From positions 1-64,000 of the forward strand of contig CADAZN010000008.1 in NCBI GenBank assembly GCA_902792435.1: a stretch of DNA of 64,000 nucleotides, given 5' to 3'. A program made the translations under genes and the position numbers. The notes beneath the pieces were generated by a model, which made no database searches, was not told the origin of the DNA, and saw only the letters and a program-made list of their open reading frames with translations. Below are positions 3,685 to 10,115 of the stretch, piece by piece (within the stretch, counting starts at the first letter, position 1; each line of letters starts with the position of its first letter). The stretch is from an uncultured Bacteroidales bacterium (GTDB taxonomy: Bacteria > Bacteroidota > Bacteroidia > Bacteroidales > Muribaculaceae).

Positions 3685-4605
3685 ATGTCGACATTGAATT
3701 TGAATATATTGGGTTGTGGCTCTGCAACATCCACGCTGCGACATCAGCCCTCGTGCCAGGTGCTGGATGTTAGAGGCAAGCTTTTCATGATTGACTGTGG
3801 AGAAGGCGCCCAACTGTCAATGCGGAAAATGAGACTCAAGTTTTCCCGACTTAACAACATCTTCATCAGCCACCTTCACGGCGATCATTGCTTCGGGCTT
3901 TTGGGGCTGATTTCCACAATGGCCCTCCTGGAAAAGGGTGGAACGGTGACAGTGCACATTTTCAAAGATGGGGCTAAGATGTTTAGCGAGCTTCTCGACT
4001 ACTTCTGTCGTGAGCGGCCGTTTGATCTCAAATTCAATATTATTGACACTCATCCGGCAGTAATCTATGAGGATAACTCCATCACTGTGAGCACAATTCC
4101 GCTCAGCCATCGCTTGCCATGCGTTGGCTTTATATTTCGAGAGAAGCCCAAGCTTCGTCACATCAATCCCGAGGAGTGTGCCAAGCACAACATTCCGTTG
4201 CATGCAATGAACTTGTTGAAGAATGGGATGGATTATGTGTCGCCCGATGGACAGGTTATTCCTAACGACGTGCTCACCACCAATCCTGAAAAGGCTGTGT
4301 CCTATGCCTACTGCAGCGACACTAAGTATTCAAAGCGAGTGATTGACTCGGTGAGAGATGTAGACTGGCTCTACCATGAGGCCACTTATGGCGACGAGAA
4401 CATCAAGAACGCCGTGAGCCGATACCACAGCACGGCACGCCAAGCAGGCATGGTGGCTAGCGAGGCTCATGTGCAAAAACTGATATTGGGGCACTATAGC
4501 AGCCGATATGTTGAAGAAGATGTGCTTTTGTCGCAGGCTCAAGAGGAATTTCCTAACACGATGCTTGCCATGGAAGGCTTGAAAATCGACCTCAGCGACG
4601 TGTGA
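3685..4605 (+). CDS. rnz: Ribonuclease Z
   Basis: 306 aa. A zinc-dependent metallo-beta-lactamase-fold endonuclease that removes 3' trailers from tRNA precursors. The HLHGDH zinc motif is at residues 63-68, preceded by IDCGEGAQ, and later ligands are visible (PLSHRLPCVGFI, YCSDTKYS, YHEATY, GHYSSRY). Length fits the short bacterial form. The ATG at 3685 gives the conserved N-terminus (LNILGCGSATSTLRHQPSCQ). It is a single-gene unit with its own promoter; the SRP RNA follows 80 bases downstream on the same strand. Confidence 0.95.
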   Translation: MSTLNLNILGCGSATSTLRHQPSCQVLDVRGKLFMIDCGEGAQLSMRKMRLKFSRLNNIFISHLHGDHCFGLLGLISTMALLEKGGTVTVHIFKDGAKMFSELLDYFCRERPFDLKFNIIDTHPAVIYEDNSITVSTIPLSHRLPCVGFIFREKPKLRHINPEECAKHNIPLHAMNLLKNGMDYVSPDGQVIPNDVLTTNPEKAVSYAYCSDTKYSKRVIDSVRDVDWLYHEATYGDENIKNAVSRYHSTARQAGMVASEAHVQKLILGHYSSRYVEEDVLLSQAQEEFPNTMLAMEGLKIDLSDV

Positions 4606-4649
4606 GAAGCTCGATAATGGCTCGTTTCAGCACTATTTTTTCGAAAAAA

Positions 4650-4680
4650 TTTGTCAGGAACAAAAAAAGTATTACCTTTG
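4650..4680 (+). promoter_or_regulatory. SRP RNA promoter
   Basis: TTTG (4650-4653), 19 bases, then TACCTTTG (4673-4680), a perfect -33/-7 pair placed just before the SRP RNA. Confidence 0.75.
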
Positions 4681-4683
4681 CAG

Positions 4684-4784
4684 CCGGGTAAGTCCTACAC
4701 GGCCAGCTCCCTGCCAATCCCCCAGGTCTTGACCGAAGCAAGGGTAACAGGTTGTAGCGGCGCGATGTAGTCTTCTTACCCTAG
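4684..4784 (+). ncRNA. ffs: Signal recognition particle RNA (small, 4.5S type)
   Basis: About 100 nt. The ends pair as GGGTAAG (4686-4692) with CTTACCC (4775-4781). The apical Ffh-binding region is recognisable: CCCAGGTCTTGACCGAAGCA, then AGGG, then GGTTGTAGCGGCGCGATGTAG, which follows the conserved order of bacterial SRP RNAs. The tip is a GGU-CUUG-ACC hairpin instead of the GGAA tetraloop of E. coli, as I recall for Bacteroidetes. The RNA works with Ffh, which is encoded about 7 kb downstream. Ends are estimated from the pairing and promoter. Confidence 0.88.
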
Positions 4785-4934
4785 ATTTGGTAGCATCTTA
4801 ATGTATCTCACTTTTTAACAACTGAGGATAGGTATGTATTTGATAAACAATATAAAATAGTGAAATGATGATAGGGTAGAGGTGCTTTTTTTTAGTTAAA
4901 ATGGTTAATGTGGAAAAATGTTTTGAAATAGTTT

Positions 4935-4964
4935 TTTGTATTAGCAAAAATATCAATACCTTTG
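4935..4964 (+). promoter_or_regulatory. Promoter of an unassigned short transcript
   Basis: TTTG (4935-4938), 18 bases, then TACCTTTG (4957-4964). It has the same strong form as the SRP RNA and rpsA promoters but no obvious gene behind it. Confidence 0.65.
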
Positions 4965-4970
4965 CACAAA

Positions 4971-5153
4971 AATTAGGACTCTGATTCAACATAATGGATT
5001 TGCTACAGTTCTTTATATTTGACAGTTATGGTCCTGGCAATAAGATGTTTACTGCCGGGGATACAATATCGCACTCAAGGAACTACAAGGCAAAGAGTAT
5101 AAACTGCACACCGCTATAAGAGCAATGTATCTTATAACGGTGTGCCGCTTTTT
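4971..5153 (+). ncRNA. Candidate structured small RNA or leader transcript
   Basis: A unit of about 180 nt between a consensus promoter and a strong terminator, with no recognised gene. Internal pairing is visible: CCTGGCA with TGCCGGG, extended by TAT/ATA after a short bulge, and an outer CAGTT with AACTG. A 41-codon frame (4994-5119, MDLLQFFIFDSYGPG...) fits inside it, and its stop codon falls in the left arm of the terminator. It may be an independent small RNA (6S-sized, though I see no closing stem typical of 6S) or a leader that controls the TonB receptor gene starting at 5245. No family was recognised. Confidence 0.5.
5106..5153 (+). terminator. Strong terminator upstream of the TonB receptor
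   Basis: Arms GCACACCGCTATAAGA (5106-5121) and 5130-5145 pair at 15 of 16 positions around an 8-base loop, followed by CGCTTTTT. It ends the candidate small RNA about 90 bases before the next start codon, so it could also act as an attenuator. Confidence 0.8.
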
Positions 5154-5244
5154 AAAAAGAGTTGATGACGCATATTTATATATAGAGACGAGAAAATAAA
5201 ACTATTAAACGTTTTTTTTAAATACTTTATTAATCTAACATTTT

Positions 5245-8200
5245 ATGCTTAAAAGATTTTACTTATCAACGCTGATGATGTTGCTGGCAGCAGCAATGTC
5301 ACTTAATGCGCAGATTACTACCTCGTCGATGACAGGTGTAATCGTTGACGACACCAATGAGCCCCTCATTGGCGCAGTGGTAAAGGCCGTGCACGTGCCC
5401 TCGGGTACTGAGTACAACGCCGTGAGCAACATGGATGGACGATTCTACATCCAAGGTATGCGTACTGGTGGTCCTTACACCACTACAGTGTCCTACGTTG
5501 GCTACAAGACAATGGTGATGTCTGAAATCACATTGCCTCTGGGTGAGACCTACAACTTGCCCGTAACCATGCAGACCGATGCTAACCAACTCCAAGAAGT
5601 GGTTGTCGTGGGCTCAGGTTCGAAGTTCGCTGGTGAGAAGACTGGAGCTACTACCAACATCTCCAATGTTCAAATCACCAACCTTCCTACCGTTACCCGC
5701 AGCATCACCGACGTTACTCGCCTCTCGCCTTATGGAGGTAACGGAATGGCTTTTGCCGGTGCTGATGGTCGTACTGCCAACTTCACTGTTGACGGTGCCA
5801 ACTTCAACAACAACTTCGGTTTGAGCGACAAACTTCCTGGTGGTGGTAACCCAATCTCACTCGACGCTATCGAGGAGTTGCAGGTTGTTATCTCGCCTTA
5901 CGACGTTCGTCAAACCAACTTCATCGGTGGTGGTGTTAACGCCATTACTAAGAGTGGTAACAACACATTCCGTGGAAGTGCCTATCTTTACCATCGTAAC
6001 GAGCACCTGCGTGGTGACTGCGTAGAAGGTGAACAGCTTGCCGGAGCTCGTGCAAAAGACCGCAACACAACTTATGGCTTTACTCTGGGTGGCCCAATCA
6101 TCAAGAACAAATTGTTCTTCTTCGTGAACGGTGAAATGTCAAAGATTCCTACTGTTGCCAATCGCTGGCGCGCTTCGGAGAACGGTGTTGCCGATCCTGA
6201 CAACTACCTGTCACGCACCACTATTGCCGACATGGCAAGAGTTCAAAAGCACGTGATGGACAAGTATGGTTATGACACCGGTTCTTATACCGACTTCCCT
6301 GCCGACGAGAGCAACTACAAGCTGCTTGCCCGTATCGACTGGAACATCACCAACGATCATCACTTAGCACTTCGCTATAACTACACTAAGAACAACGTAT
6401 GGAACGCAGCCAACGCCACTTCGATGGACGGTGGCACTCGTTCAGCATTTGCCCGTGCATCGCAGTACTCGATGATTTTTGCAAACTCGATGTACTCAAT
6501 GCAGAACCTTGTGCACTCTCTTTCATTTGACTTGAACAGCCGCTTGACCGACAACCTGTCGAACCAGTTCCTCGCCACTTGGTCAAAACTTGACGACGTG
6601 CGTGGCACTAATTCAAGCGAGTTCCCATTCATCGACATCCTTGATGGTACTGGCTCTAACGGCAACTACATGGCTCTCGGTTATGAGCTCTTTACTTGGA
6701 ATAACGCCGTTCACAACACCATTTGGAACATGAAGGACGATATCACTTACTATGCTGGTAACCACAAGATTATGGGTGGCATCAGCTTCGAGCATCAGAT
6801 GGCCGACAACCAGTATATGCGTAATGGTACTGGTTACTACCGCTATGAGAGCGTTGACGACTTCATCAATGGCGCTGCTCCTCAGGTGGTTTGCTTGACC
6901 TACGGTTACGACGGTGAGACTGCTCCTGCAGCTCGAGTTCAGTTCAACAAGCTTGGCATCTATGGTCAGGACGAGTGGAACGTTAGTGACAAGTTCAAAT
7001 TGACTTACGGACTTCGCATCGATGGTCTCTTCTTCAACAATGGTGACCTGATGACTAACAAGAAAATCCTTGACATTGACTATTATGATGAGGACGGTAA
7101 AGTTCGCAACGTTGACACTGGCAAGTGGCCAAAGAGCTCAATCACCTTCTCGCCTCGCGTAGGTTTCGTTTGGGATGTAATGGGCGACAAGAGCCTCAAG
7201 GTTCGTGGCGGTACAGGTCTCTTCTCGGGCCGTCTGCCATTGGTATTCTTCACCAACATGCCAACCAACGGTGGTATGGTTCAATACCAAGCTCAGCTCA
7301 ACTCTAAAAACACCGATATGAGCCAGTTTGCTGGCGGTCTCGTTACCGACGCTAGCGGCCATGCTACTATCGCTGCTCTGCAGGAGAAACTCTTCAGCAT
7401 GGGTTACCCACAGACTGTTAAGCCAGAGGATGGTACTGTTCCATCGGCCGTTAATGGTGTAGATTCTAAGTTCAAGATGCCACAGGTGTGGAAATCTTCA
7501 ATCGCTATTGACTATGCATTCCCAGTATCATTCCCATTAACACTGACTGGTGAGTTTATCTTCAACAAGACTATCAATGGTGTTTCGATCAGCGACTGGT
7601 CAATTCCTAGCGTAGGTGGCTTCGCCCGCTTCAACGGTGCTGACAACCGTCCAATCTATCCTGAAGGATTCCGCACTGGTACCAAGGCATTCGTTCTTGA
7701 GAACACAAGCAAGGGTTACGGATGGAGCGCCAATATCATGGCAACTGCTAAACCTGCCGATTGGGTAAGCTTGATGGCTTCTTACACTCACACTGTTTCT
7801 AAGGAAGTTACCGGTATGCCAGGTTCGGCTGCTGAGAGTGCCTTCACTTATGTTCCTACTTGGGAAGGTCCTAACAACATTCGTCTGCACAACTCGCAGT
7901 ATGTTACTCCCGATCGCTTCGTGGCAAGTGCCACTCTGCACGACCGCAGCGGCAACCACTACAACCTCATCTATGAGGCTTGGCGTGGAGGTTACAACTA
8001 CTCTTACATGACTAGCAACGACATGAACGGCGACGGTTACAACTACGACGCTATCTACATCCCAACCGATCAGGAGGTTGCTGATGGAGAGTTCCGTTTC
8101 GTTAGCGAAAACGATCGCGACCGCTTCATGAGCTACGTTCACAACGACAGCTACCTGAAGAATCATCAGGGTGAGTATGCCGAGGGTTACAGCGTTTACA

Positions 8201-8523
8201 GCCCATGGGTACACCGCATTGACCTTGGTTACAAGCACGACTTCAACTTCCGTGCTGGCAACACCAAGCACACAATCCAGTTGAGCTTCGACATGAAGAA
8301 CGTTCTTAACTTCTTCAACTCTAGCTGGGGCGTAAGCAAGACTTTGAATCCTGAAATTGGCAGTGAAGCACGCATCCTTGACTACAAGGGCGTTGATGCC
8401 GATGGATATGCTAGATTTGCTACTAATAAGGCTATCGACGGCAACACCAAGACTTGGACTCCCTACCACAACATTGGTCAATGCTGGAACATTGCTATCG
8501 GTATTAAGTATATTTTCAATTAA
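5245..8523 (+). CDS. Oar-like TonB-dependent outer membrane receptor
   Basis: 1092 aa. Signal peptide (residues 1-22, ending SLNAQ), a carboxypeptidase-regulatory-like beta domain (about 28-110: GVIVDDTNEPLIGAVV...), a TonB-dependent plug (about 115-235: TVDGANFNN, ISPYDVRQTNFIGGGVNA) and a long 22-strand-type barrel ending in IAIGIKYIFN. The plug signature and the lack of the SusC TonB-box region place it with Oar/OmpA-related receptors rather than SusC. It imports an unknown ligand through the outer membrane using TonB energy. The next gene, 23 bases downstream, is a lipoprotein likely to work with it. The upstream terminator suggests controlled expression. Confidence 0.88.
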   Translation: MLKRFYLSTLMMLLAAAMSLNAQITTSSMTGVIVDDTNEPLIGAVVKAVHVPSGTEYNAVSNMDGRFYIQGMRTGGPYTTTVSYVGYKTMVMSEITLPLGETYNLPVTMQTDANQLQEVVVVGSGSKFAGEKTGATTNISNVQITNLPTVTRSITDVTRLSPYGGNGMAFAGADGRTANFTVDGANFNNNFGLSDKLPGGGNPISLDAIEELQVVISPYDVRQTNFIGGGVNAITKSGNNTFRGSAYLYHRNEHLRGDCVEGEQLAGARAKDRNTTYGFTLGGPIIKNKLFFFVNGEMSKIPTVANRWRASENGVADPDNYLSRTTIADMARVQKHVMDKYGYDTGSYTDFPADESNYKLLARIDWNITNDHHLALRYNYTKNNVWNAANATSMDGGTRSAFARASQYSMIFANSMYSMQNLVHSLSFDLNSRLTDNLSNQFLATWSKLDDVRGTNSSEFPFIDILDGTGSNGNYMALGYELFTWNNAVHNTIWNMKDDITYYAGNHKIMGGISFEHQMADNQYMRNGTGYYRYESVDDFINGAAPQVVCLTYGYDGETAPAARVQFNKLGIYGQDEWNVSDKFKLTYGLRIDGLFFNNGDLMTNKKILDIDYYDEDGKVRNVDTGKWPKSSITFSPRVGFVWDVMGDKSLKVRGGTGLFSGRLPLVFFTNMPTNGGMVQYQAQLNSKNTDMSQFAGGLVTDASGHATIAALQEKLFSMGYPQTVKPEDGTVPSAVNGVDSKFKMPQVWKSSIAIDYAFPVSFPLTLTGEFIFNKTINGVSISDWSIPSVGGFARFNGADNRPIYPEGFRTGTKAFVLENTSKGYGWSANIMATAKPADWVSLMASYTHTVSKEVTGMPGSAAESAFTYVPTWEGPNNIRLHNSQYVTPDRFVASATLHDRSGNHYNLIYEAWRGGYNYSYMTSNDMNGDGYNYDAIYIPTDQEVADGEFRFVSENDRDRFMSYVHNDSYLKNHQGEYAEGYSVYSPWVHRIDLGYKHDFNFRAGNTKHTIQLSFDMKNVLNFFNSSWGVSKTLNPEIGSEARILDYKGVDADGYARFATNKAIDGNTKTWTPYHNIGQCWNIAIGIKYIFN

Positions 8524-8546: not shown

Positions 8547-10115
8547 ATGAAACTTAGATATTTTATTCCCGCATTTATTGCACTGGTAGGTGCTATGATG
8601 GTTAGCTGCTCCGACGAGGATACAGTAACTTTGCTCGATGAGATTCAAGTGTCTCGTTCCTACGTTCCCATCAACATTGAAGGAGGTGAGGCAACAATCG
8701 ATGTTAACGCCAAAGCCGATTGGAGCATGAGCATAATACTCAAAGAAAAAGAAACAGAAGAAAACTATAAATGGCTCACCGTGACACCTATGGAGGGCAA
8801 GGCCGGTGAGACTAAGGTTAAATTCAGTGCTCCTGCAACTGAAAATGGTCGTAATGCCGAACTGATAATCAACTGCGCAGGTCGCACTCAGCGCATCAAA
8901 GTCATCCAAGGTCTTCCTGTAGTTCAAGATGCTACTTGTGCCGAGGTTATCGCAGGTCCTGAAAGCAAGACTTATCGCGTGACTGGTGCTATCACACGTT
9001 GGGCTAACAACTATGAAAAGTATGGCAACATGTGGATCTCGGATGGAACCGGAGAAATCCAGATTTATGGTATGGCCGACAAGAATGGCAAGCTTGCCAA
9101 TAACCCCGTTGCAAGTTGGGGGCTTGAAATTGGTGATGTTATCACTGTTGAAGGTCCAAAGTCGGTTTATAACGGCATCACTGAGCTCGTTGACGTGAAA
9201 GTTGTTAAGATTGTGAAATCACTTCTGAAGATTGAAGGATACGATCCCGAGGATGCCACAATTCCTCAGGAGGGTGGCGACGTTACTGTGAACCTTAACT
9301 GCAAGGGCAATGGCTTGAGCGTTGAGATTCCTGAGAGCGCCAAGAACTGGCTTGCAATCTCTGAAATCACAGCTGGAAGCAATCCAACCGTTACATTCCA
9401 TGCAAATGCCAATGCTGGTGGCGACCGCAGCGCAGTGGTTACCTTCAAGACCAGCAATGGCTCACAGGAGAGTGCTGTAACTGCTACCATCAACCAGAAG
9501 GGTTCTATCGTAGCTTGCACAGTAGCCGAGTTCCTTGCTGCAGCTGAGGATGCTACACAATATCGCTTGACTGGTGTAATCCAGAAGGTGACTAAGGCCT
9601 CTTCGGGCGACTTCGTACTGCGCGACTGGAGTGGTGAGGTTGCTATCTACCACATGGGTGCTCAGGGCGAGTTTGAATCACTAGGACTCAAGGAAGGCGA
9701 CATTATTACTGTAGTAGGCAAGCGTGGTTCTTACAACGGCACACCACAAATGTCGAAGGGTGGTCAGTATGAGACTCACATCCCAGTTACCGACATTAGC
9801 ATTGAAGATTTCTTTGAAATGCCTGATGACAAAAACGTGTATTACCGTATAACAGGAGAGGTATCTTCTCTGTTAGACAAGAATGGTAAACCTAATGAAT
9901 GGGGTAACATGTATATAACTGATGGTGGTCAAGAACTCTATGTATACGGTCTCTATCCAGGCTATGGTGCTACTGACGACAACCGCAAGGGTTGGGTAGC
10001 CAAAGCAGGTATTGAAGTGGGCGATGTCCTTACCACTATTGGCTATAAAGATACCTTTAATGGTCTTGTAGAGATTTGTGGCGGTATCTACTTCTCGCAT
10101 TCAAAACCTGAATAA
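8547..10115 (+). CDS. BACON/OB-fold surface lipoprotein
   Basis: 522 aa. Lipoprotein signal with Cys21 (AMMVSCSDED), so probably anchored in the outer membrane. Domains in order: BACON-like (about 35-122), OB-fold-like repeat (130-225), second BACON-like (235-318), then two more OB-like repeats (322-410 and 418-520). The three OB repeats share the pattern 'R-T-G ... GD-I-T-V-G ... Y-G'. BACON domains usually bind glycans or mucin; the OB-like repeats resemble DUF5689/YhcR-type folds. It is cotranscribed with the Oar-like receptor and ends before a strong terminator, so I infer it is the receptor's surface partner. No enzyme motif is visible. Confidence 0.82.
   Translation: MKLRYFIPAFIALVGAMMVSCSDEDTVTLLDEIQVSRSYVPINIEGGEATIDVNAKADWSMSIILKEKETEENYKWLTVTPMEGKAGETKVKFSAPATENGRNAELIINCAGRTQRIKVIQGLPVVQDATCAEVIAGPESKTYRVTGAITRWANNYEKYGNMWISDGTGEIQIYGMADKNGKLANNPVASWGLEIGDVITVEGPKSVYNGITELVDVKVVKIVKSLLKIEGYDPEDATIPQEGGDVTVNLNCKGNGLSVEIPESAKNWLAISEITAGSNPTVTFHANANAGGDRSAVVTFKTSNGSQESAVTATINQKGSIVACTVAEFLAAAEDATQYRLTGVIQKVTKASSGDFVLRDWSGEVAIYHMGAQGEFESLGLKEGDIITVVGKRGSYNGTPQMSKGGQYETHIPVTDISIEDFFEMPDDKNVYYRITGEVSSLLDKNGKPNEWGNMYITDGGQELYVYGLYPGYGATDDNRKGWVAKAGIEVGDVLTTIGYKDTFNGLVEICGGIYFSHSKPE

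Follow-up and report, generated by a model that had tools for sequence, protein, structure and literature searches.

A probable translation-coupled transcription attenuator before an Oar-like receptor gene in an uncultured Bacteroidales bacterium

The 64,000-nucleotide stretch of uncultured Bacteroidales DNA analysed in this study (the window) contains a short unit with its own promoter, a 41-codon open reading frame (ORF) and a terminator hairpin, followed by the gene of a TonB-dependent outer-membrane receptor (Table 1). What such a unit does before such a gene is the question raised by this locus. A previous reading of the letters alone (the sequence-only reading) had left two explanations side by side, an independent small RNA of the 6S or regulatory kind and a peptide-coupled attenuator. 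We propose that the unit is probably a pyrBI-type translation-coupled transcription attenuator for the receptor, a reading drawn from comparison of the sequences of related genomes. The receptor matches the Pfam families OMP_b-brl_4, CarboxypepD_reg and TonB_dep_Rec_b-barrel above cut-off, and its NCBIfam SusC/RagA score is far under the cut-off of that model; we presume the name Oar, taken over from the earlier reading, to be appropriate. Immediately 3' of the receptor, at 8547-10115, lies the gene of a 522-residue protein that by eye is probably secreted or a lipoprotein and that has nothing above cut-off in NCBIfam; this gene is perhaps cotranscribed with the receptor.

Table 1 Features of the leader unit and of the receptor gene, in window coordinates
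Feature	Position	Strand	Remarks
AT-rich block TTTTAGTTAAAATGGTTAATGTGGAAAAA	4890-4918	+	Candidate activator or UP-type site, 5' of the promoter
Bacteroidota-type promoter	4935-4964	+	TTTG 4935-4938 and TACCTTTG 4957-4964, 18 nt apart
Leader 5' untranslated part	4970-4993	+	Transcription start inferred from the promoter
Leader ORF	4994-5119	+	ATG to TAA (5117-5119), 41 codons, MDLLQFFIFDSYGPGNKMFTAGDTISHSRNYKAKSINCTPL
Rod-shaped fold (predicted)	4999-5094	+	Outer stem 4999-5004/5089-5094 and 5007-5014/5077-5084; inner hairpin 5032-5039/5053-5060
Intrinsic terminator	5106-5153	+	Hairpin 5106-5145, CGC, U5 5149-5153; overlaps the end of the leader ORF
Oar-like TonB-dependent outer-membrane receptor	5245-8523	+	Presumed regulated gene

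The leader element is present in a single copy in its own genome. A blastn search with the element gave a good match in two of 36 same-genus relatives (72% and 71% identical), and in both of them the peptide, its frame, the promoter and the hairpin are those of the window, with the same receptor following. A profile built from these three peptides and run on 101 genomes of the genus matched 23 genomes at E <= 0.1, 17 of which were accepted by their position before the receptor and make up the set that we call leader 1; the remaining six, with E from 0.03 to 0.1, were put down to chance, G099 alone of these being inspected. All 12 peptide matches with E < 1e-7, counted genome-wide, stand before the receptor. 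The receptor follows the leader in 16 of the 17 loci inspected, the seventeenth being the chance match in G099, and also in G118. The same-genus relatives are uncultured, mostly ruminant-derived by label, and are named as Bacteroidales, Muribaculaceae, Prevotellaceae or Porphyromonadaceae.

Simple promoter and terminator scans showed no excess over shuffled sequence; the terminator scan found 3 terminator-like sites against 1.6 in shuffles and listed the terminator of the unit on the other strand only. We nevertheless regard the unit as real because the identical arrangement of promoter, ORF and hairpin is conserved in the 17 leader-1 genomes, though the scans alone are not beyond chance. The promoter, frame and terminator described in the sequence-only reading are thus borne out, in their letters as well as in their conservation. 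The promoter was called with a consensus that we assume to be that of Bacteroidota, and TACCTTTG or TACCTTTGC starts 35-38 nt before the leader ATG in all 17 genomes. The AT-rich block of about 29 bp is recognisable by eye, with some differences and at a near-constant distance from the promoter, in 12 of the 17. Its core, GTTAAAATNGTTAATGT, has 10 matches at up to two mismatches in the own genome (one exact, one with a single mismatch) against 4 for the reversed control; the one-mismatch copy lies at G000:C23:43350-43366. At the other end of the unit, the CGC that separates the hairpin from the U5 tract may weaken the terminator.

Searches of the family databases gave little. With Rfam at gathering score the SRP RNA at 4679-4785 was the sole match in the whole window, and the extra matches of a permissive search of 4400-5400 were all far below their gathering scores; the Rfam search proposed by the sequence-only reading therefore returned the SRP RNA and nothing for the leader unit. 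The window's leader peptide has no match in Pfam or NCBIfam, and a hand-made version of leader 1 gave one sub-threshold Pfam match (E 0.37), while that of leader 2, the second peptide described below, gave none. Therefore such leaders can escape notice.

Comparison of the leader-1 genomes indicates that the ORF is a conserved translated ORF and not a 6S or other non-coding RNA. The first 38 codons are stop-free in 17 of 17 genomes, whereas each of the other five frames on the two strands is interrupted by stops in 15 to 17 of them. Residues 1-27 align without gaps and are conserved, and the tail is not. We compared the summed pairwise amino-acid similarity over codons 2-27 with that obtained when the same base changes were placed at random (300 draws). 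The ORF's own frame (frame 0) scored 7876 against 4896 (sd 144, draw maximum 5285), i.e. 2980 above the null, whereas frame 1 scored 3986 against 4541 (sd 143), 555 below it, and frame 2 scored 4440 against 3933 (sd 162), 507 above and just over the draw maximum of 4435; these scores are not probabilities, because pairs of related sequences are not independent. Variability is only somewhat higher at third codon positions (0.44) than at the others (0.36 and 0.27).

The conserved frame is kept open into the terminator. As the sequence-only reading had noticed, the stop codon of the window's leader lies within the left arm of the hairpin. The hairpin is present in 17 of 17 leader-1 genomes and all 17 frames stop inside it, eight in the left arm and nine in the loop or right arm. 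Of the three possible frames of entry into the hairpin, two occur, in 10 and 7 genomes. Between codon 28 and the hairpin no stop interrupts the leader frame in any of the 17, compared with open stretches in 7 and 9 of 17 for the other frames.

The leader is tied to the receptor. The receptor N-terminus was found in 92 of the 101 genomes and the upstream region was inspected for 87, excluding G061 (match from residue 24), G016 (two-piece match) and G082, G085 and G124 (short open frames, unchecked). A region was scored as having the layout when TAnnTTTG stood 90-165 nt 5' of a stretch of 44 nt with a folding energy of <= -14 kcal/mol, this stretch lying no more than 170 nt from the ATG. This layout of promoter, spacer and strong hairpin is found in 69 of the 87 regions. 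Of the 18 regions outside the rule, 11 carry a promoter at 125 nt or less from the ATG with no strong hairpin in the interval, three show other spacings and four lack an exact TAnnTTTG over 330 nt. G089, counted among the 11, has a further hairpin and promoter farther up and may carry a leader with longer spacing. Three same-genus genomes, G008, G068 and G080 (loci L169, L171 and L172), have the receptor with no hairpin and a promoter at 81-124 nt, apparently through loss of the leader. The promoter is close to the gene, by eye, in the Prevotella and Segatella receptors inspected. Between terminator and receptor, no TAnnTTTG occurs in any of the 17 leader-1 genomes. Among 11 named leader-1 loci the upstream neighbours vary, namely a ribonuclease Z facing away (three), a folD-like frame (two), a secreted-protein-like frame (three) and others; these were named by eye except for ribonuclease Z, which was called by match to the window protein at 3685-4605, which we take to be that enzyme. 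The upstream neighbours change and the receptor does not, which ties the leader to the receptor and not to the SRP RNA.

Thirty-six genomes have a sister type of the receptor (MLRTVKLLALVAMFF and similar), and 33 of them encode a second conserved peptide, MSVYSLGIPFRITCSGEAASQFYNPLQE (leader 2). It occupies the same place before the receptor, and by eye the two peptides are dissimilar. In the coding test, 30 ungapped members scored 38706 in frame 0 against 27185 (sd 212), with the other frames under the null; the members had been picked by a four-residue motif situated inside the stretch that was tested. The leader-2 frame is open up to the hairpin in 33 of 33 genomes, compared with 22 and 20 for the other frames, and through the whole hairpin in 31 of 33, compared with 2 and 4. 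Its stops lie in the left arm (two) or past the hairpin (23), and eight frames have no stop before the receptor ATG. Five leader-2 frames, in G018, G070, G095, G098 and G109 (loci L191, L179, L184, L201 and L206), are open and in phase with the receptor ATG, so a fused reading of leader and receptor would be possible on paper in these genomes. Further candidate leader frames, with the hairpins GCGCTGCATTAG, CACGCTGCACC and CGCCGCAATAG at similar spacing, stand before other receptor types at L220, L224 and L225 and in the upstream regions of G013, G084, G066 and G075.

Both searches were extended beyond the genus. Across 393 genomes of the order the leader-1 profile matched the own genome only and the leader-2 profile matched none, in a set that held no positive control for leader 2. 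In other genera of the family there were 10 receptor matches in eight genomes, and 8 of the 10 upstream regions were inspected by eye: one has 25 bases upstream only and six have TAnnTTTG close to the gene. At L232, in G505 of another genus, a related receptor has TAnnTTTG about 310 nt 5' and a hairpin-like stretch between, which leaves room for a possible leader beyond the genus. Neither leader 1 nor leader 2 was found in the 392 other genomes of the order, or by eye at six of the seven usable other-genus loci, the seventh being L232 with its possible leader.

Codon use in the leaders is peculiar. For isoleucine, leader 1 uses the rare codon AUA 31 times out of 42, and leader 2 uses it 77 times out of 87. 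This is a strong excess, as the share is 73 of 787 in the 24 window ORFs of at least 300 codons, and 11 of 119 and 2 of 147 over the first 100 codons of the receptors in the leader-bearing genomes. All 17 leader-1 genomes have AUA as codon 8, and aligned codons 8 and 12 are AUA in 28 of 30 and 30 of 30 leader-2 genomes tested, numbered by alignment because the start codons of some leader-2 ORFs are uncertain. The poorly used codons AGG, UUA and CCG are likewise enriched in leader 1 or leader 2. The two leaders also have a low overall codon adaptation, 0.53 and 0.51, the receptor starts reaching 0.64. No run of control codons for one amino acid was found in the peptides of either leader, and the over-used AUA codons do not form a run. 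Constraint on the RNA could be a partial cause of this bias. The leader might also be a codon-tuned translation sensor, in which AUA-tRNA supply or decoding speed would set passage through the terminator and hence receptor output, the sequence of the peptide being irrelevant; we regard this as doubtful, and if true it would amount to a growth gauge controlling the amount of an outer-membrane receptor.

The leader-1 RNA likely folds as a rod. Folding of the full unit is stronger than that of shuffles (z -3.6), and most of this excess is due to the terminator, as z falls to -1.4 when the terminator is left out. In the predicted fold, the beginning of the ORF is base-paired to its last part, which is not conserved. 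Within the main leader-1 subgroup, 10-23 outer pairs are predicted for 11 of 12 genomes and none for G094, and the inner hairpin is predicted for all 12. When the unconserved part alone is shuffled, the average fold is weaker than the native one in all 17 genomes (mean z -1.6, single-sequence p 0.005 to 0.44). The alignment of relatives suggested by the sequence-only reading gave moderate covariation for leader 1 alongside the conservation of the unit in 17 genomes: both sides had changed in 10 cells, where shuffles gave 4.2 (as many in 1 of 500), a count by pairs gave 7 against 3.9 (25 of 500), and 80.2% of cells are paired, compared with 77.3% in shuffles and 36-51% when the alignment is slid. 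Of the stems named earlier, CCTGGCA (5033-5039) and TGCCGGG (5053-5059) are paired in the predicted fold. The letters of CAGTT and AACTG are present as described, while their pairing as a stem gives way to the outer stems of Table 1, which both the fold and the relatives favour. For leader 2, RNAalifold returned part of the inner stem only, with covariation no better than in shuffles. Pairing of the terminator left arm with upstream sequence showed no excess on average: leader 1 had 0.18 where shuffled arms had 0.32, and leader 2 had 0.39 where they had 0.37. The control was 15 single-base shuffles of each arm, and the leader-2 fold began at about the start codon and not at the transcription start. 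These predicted folds give no sign of an antiterminator in competition with the terminator.

We propose the following mechanism. Transcription from the single promoter would give a leader RNA of about 180 nt, comprising an ORF of about 40 codons, the predicted rod and the terminator overlapped by the ORF, with the receptor beyond. A ribosome close behind RNA polymerase would cover the left arm of the terminator, the hairpin would not form and transcription would run into the receptor. With a ribosome that is slow, has stalled or has not started on the leader, the terminator would form and the short RNA alone would be made. Since the folds gave no structure in competition with the terminator, the role of switch would fall to the ribosome itself and not to an antiterminator in the RNA. 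The rod most likely sets the relative timing of ribosome and polymerase, by making the polymerase pause or by slowing the ribosome. According to an excerpt of work on E. coli, terminators close to the start evade the ribosome if no pause couples it to the polymerase (PMC4824070). By this comparison, the early position of the leader terminator, about 150 nt from the promoter, would count against coupling. The rod may provide the pausing that coupling needs. Of the two explanations left by the sequence-only reading, the peptide-coupled attenuator is the one towards which the conserved coding, the stop in the hairpin of leader 1 and the receptor always standing next point.

Other mechanisms would also use parts of this evidence. 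TnaC, SpeFL and SecM are arrest peptides, at which the ribosome stalls at a fixed codon, and in an attenuator like those of TnaC or SpeFL codons 3-27, the N-terminal two thirds, would bind a ligand or the tunnel, stall the ribosome before the terminator and set read-through. The conserved, gap-free residues 1-27 followed by an unconserved tail fit an arrest near codon 27. We consider such an arrest unlikely, as two dissimilar peptides occupy the same place and the tail is apparently constrained by RNA pairing; the same constraint on the tail would also explain why the first part alone is conserved as a peptide. Slight weight is also given to an independent short mRNA with a constitutive terminator, whose product would be a small peptide or a dual-function RNA, the receptor living on leaky read-through. 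The strong hairpin and the conserved peptide would suit it, but the 12 matches with E < 1e-7 all precede a receptor whose upstream neighbours vary, no TAnnTTTG lies nearer the receptor in the 17 leader-1 genomes, and 11 of the 87 regions, which do not have the leader layout, place the promoter near the gene.

The pairing of the outer arms, seemingly kept beyond coding needs, could instead indicate an antiterminator protein or ligand that acts on the rod, the ORF being translated without being the switch. Such a mechanism leaves unexplained why the frame of all 50 leaders stays open into the hairpin or past it, and we hold it to be very improbable. A second 6S-like RNA is scarcely credible: the predicted rod-and-bubble fold would agree with a promoter-mimicking bubble, which would hold most of TATATTTG (5014-5021), but the letters of TATATTTG vary in relatives, including a synonymous change of TTT to TTC. 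We rejected this candidate on that coding-type change, on the lack of an Rfam match and on the presence of the Bacteroidales-1 RNA elsewhere in the genome, and the independent small RNA or 6S explanation of the sequence-only reading is likewise not supported. The Bacteroidales-1 RNA (RF01693, 110.6 bits), a family that we take to be the Bacteroidales 6S RNA, was found at locus L039 (G000:C1:254685-254870), by eye 3' of infC-rpmI-rplT-like genes.

If the proposed pyrBI-type attenuator is correct, this would be a case of translation-coupled attenuation of a surface receptor in Bacteroidota, which is little documented in the literature searched. The two dissimilar peptides and the leaderless relatives would then form a natural series for weighing the contributions of peptide, codons, fold and spacing. 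Our literature search on leader peptides, attenuation and AUA-codon leaders in Bacteroidetes and Bacteroides brought up, in the extracts of the papers it covered, no receptor leader of this kind. Small ORFs in 5' untranslated regions that are reminiscent of leader peptides are described for Bacteroides thetaiotaomicron in an extract of one report (PMC7366714), and leader peptides are suggested for amino-acid operons of Flavobacterium psychrophilum in an extract of another (PMC9723704). These candidates and the leader here have in common short 5' ORFs that are thought to attenuate; the extracts differ from the present case in naming no receptor target, no conserved peptide family and no layout with the frame running into a hairpin.

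The unit resembles the trp, his and leu attenuators in its order of leader peptide, internal hairpin, terminator and structural gene. In these amino-acid attenuators an antiterminator competes with the terminator, and the leu leader uses rare codons, as do the leaders here. Their terminator lies more than 20 bp past the leader gene, according to an excerpt of one account (PMC4824070). Here, in contrast, the ORF overlaps the terminator, no competing structure was found and there is no run for a single amino acid. Regulation of the pyrBI type acts by UTP through polymerase pausing. The leader described here would differ in regulating an outer-membrane receptor, whereas pyrBI concerns pyrimidine synthesis; it would differ too in its long rod fold before the terminator, its conserved peptide and its Bacteroidota host. 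The likeness lies in the arrangement: excerpts on E. coli pyrBI describe a terminator inside the 135-bp leader gene (pyrL) and a ribosome that suppresses the hairpin by close coupling (PMC4824070, PMC5021804), and the leader gene here, of 126 bp, likewise has its terminator inside or at its end.
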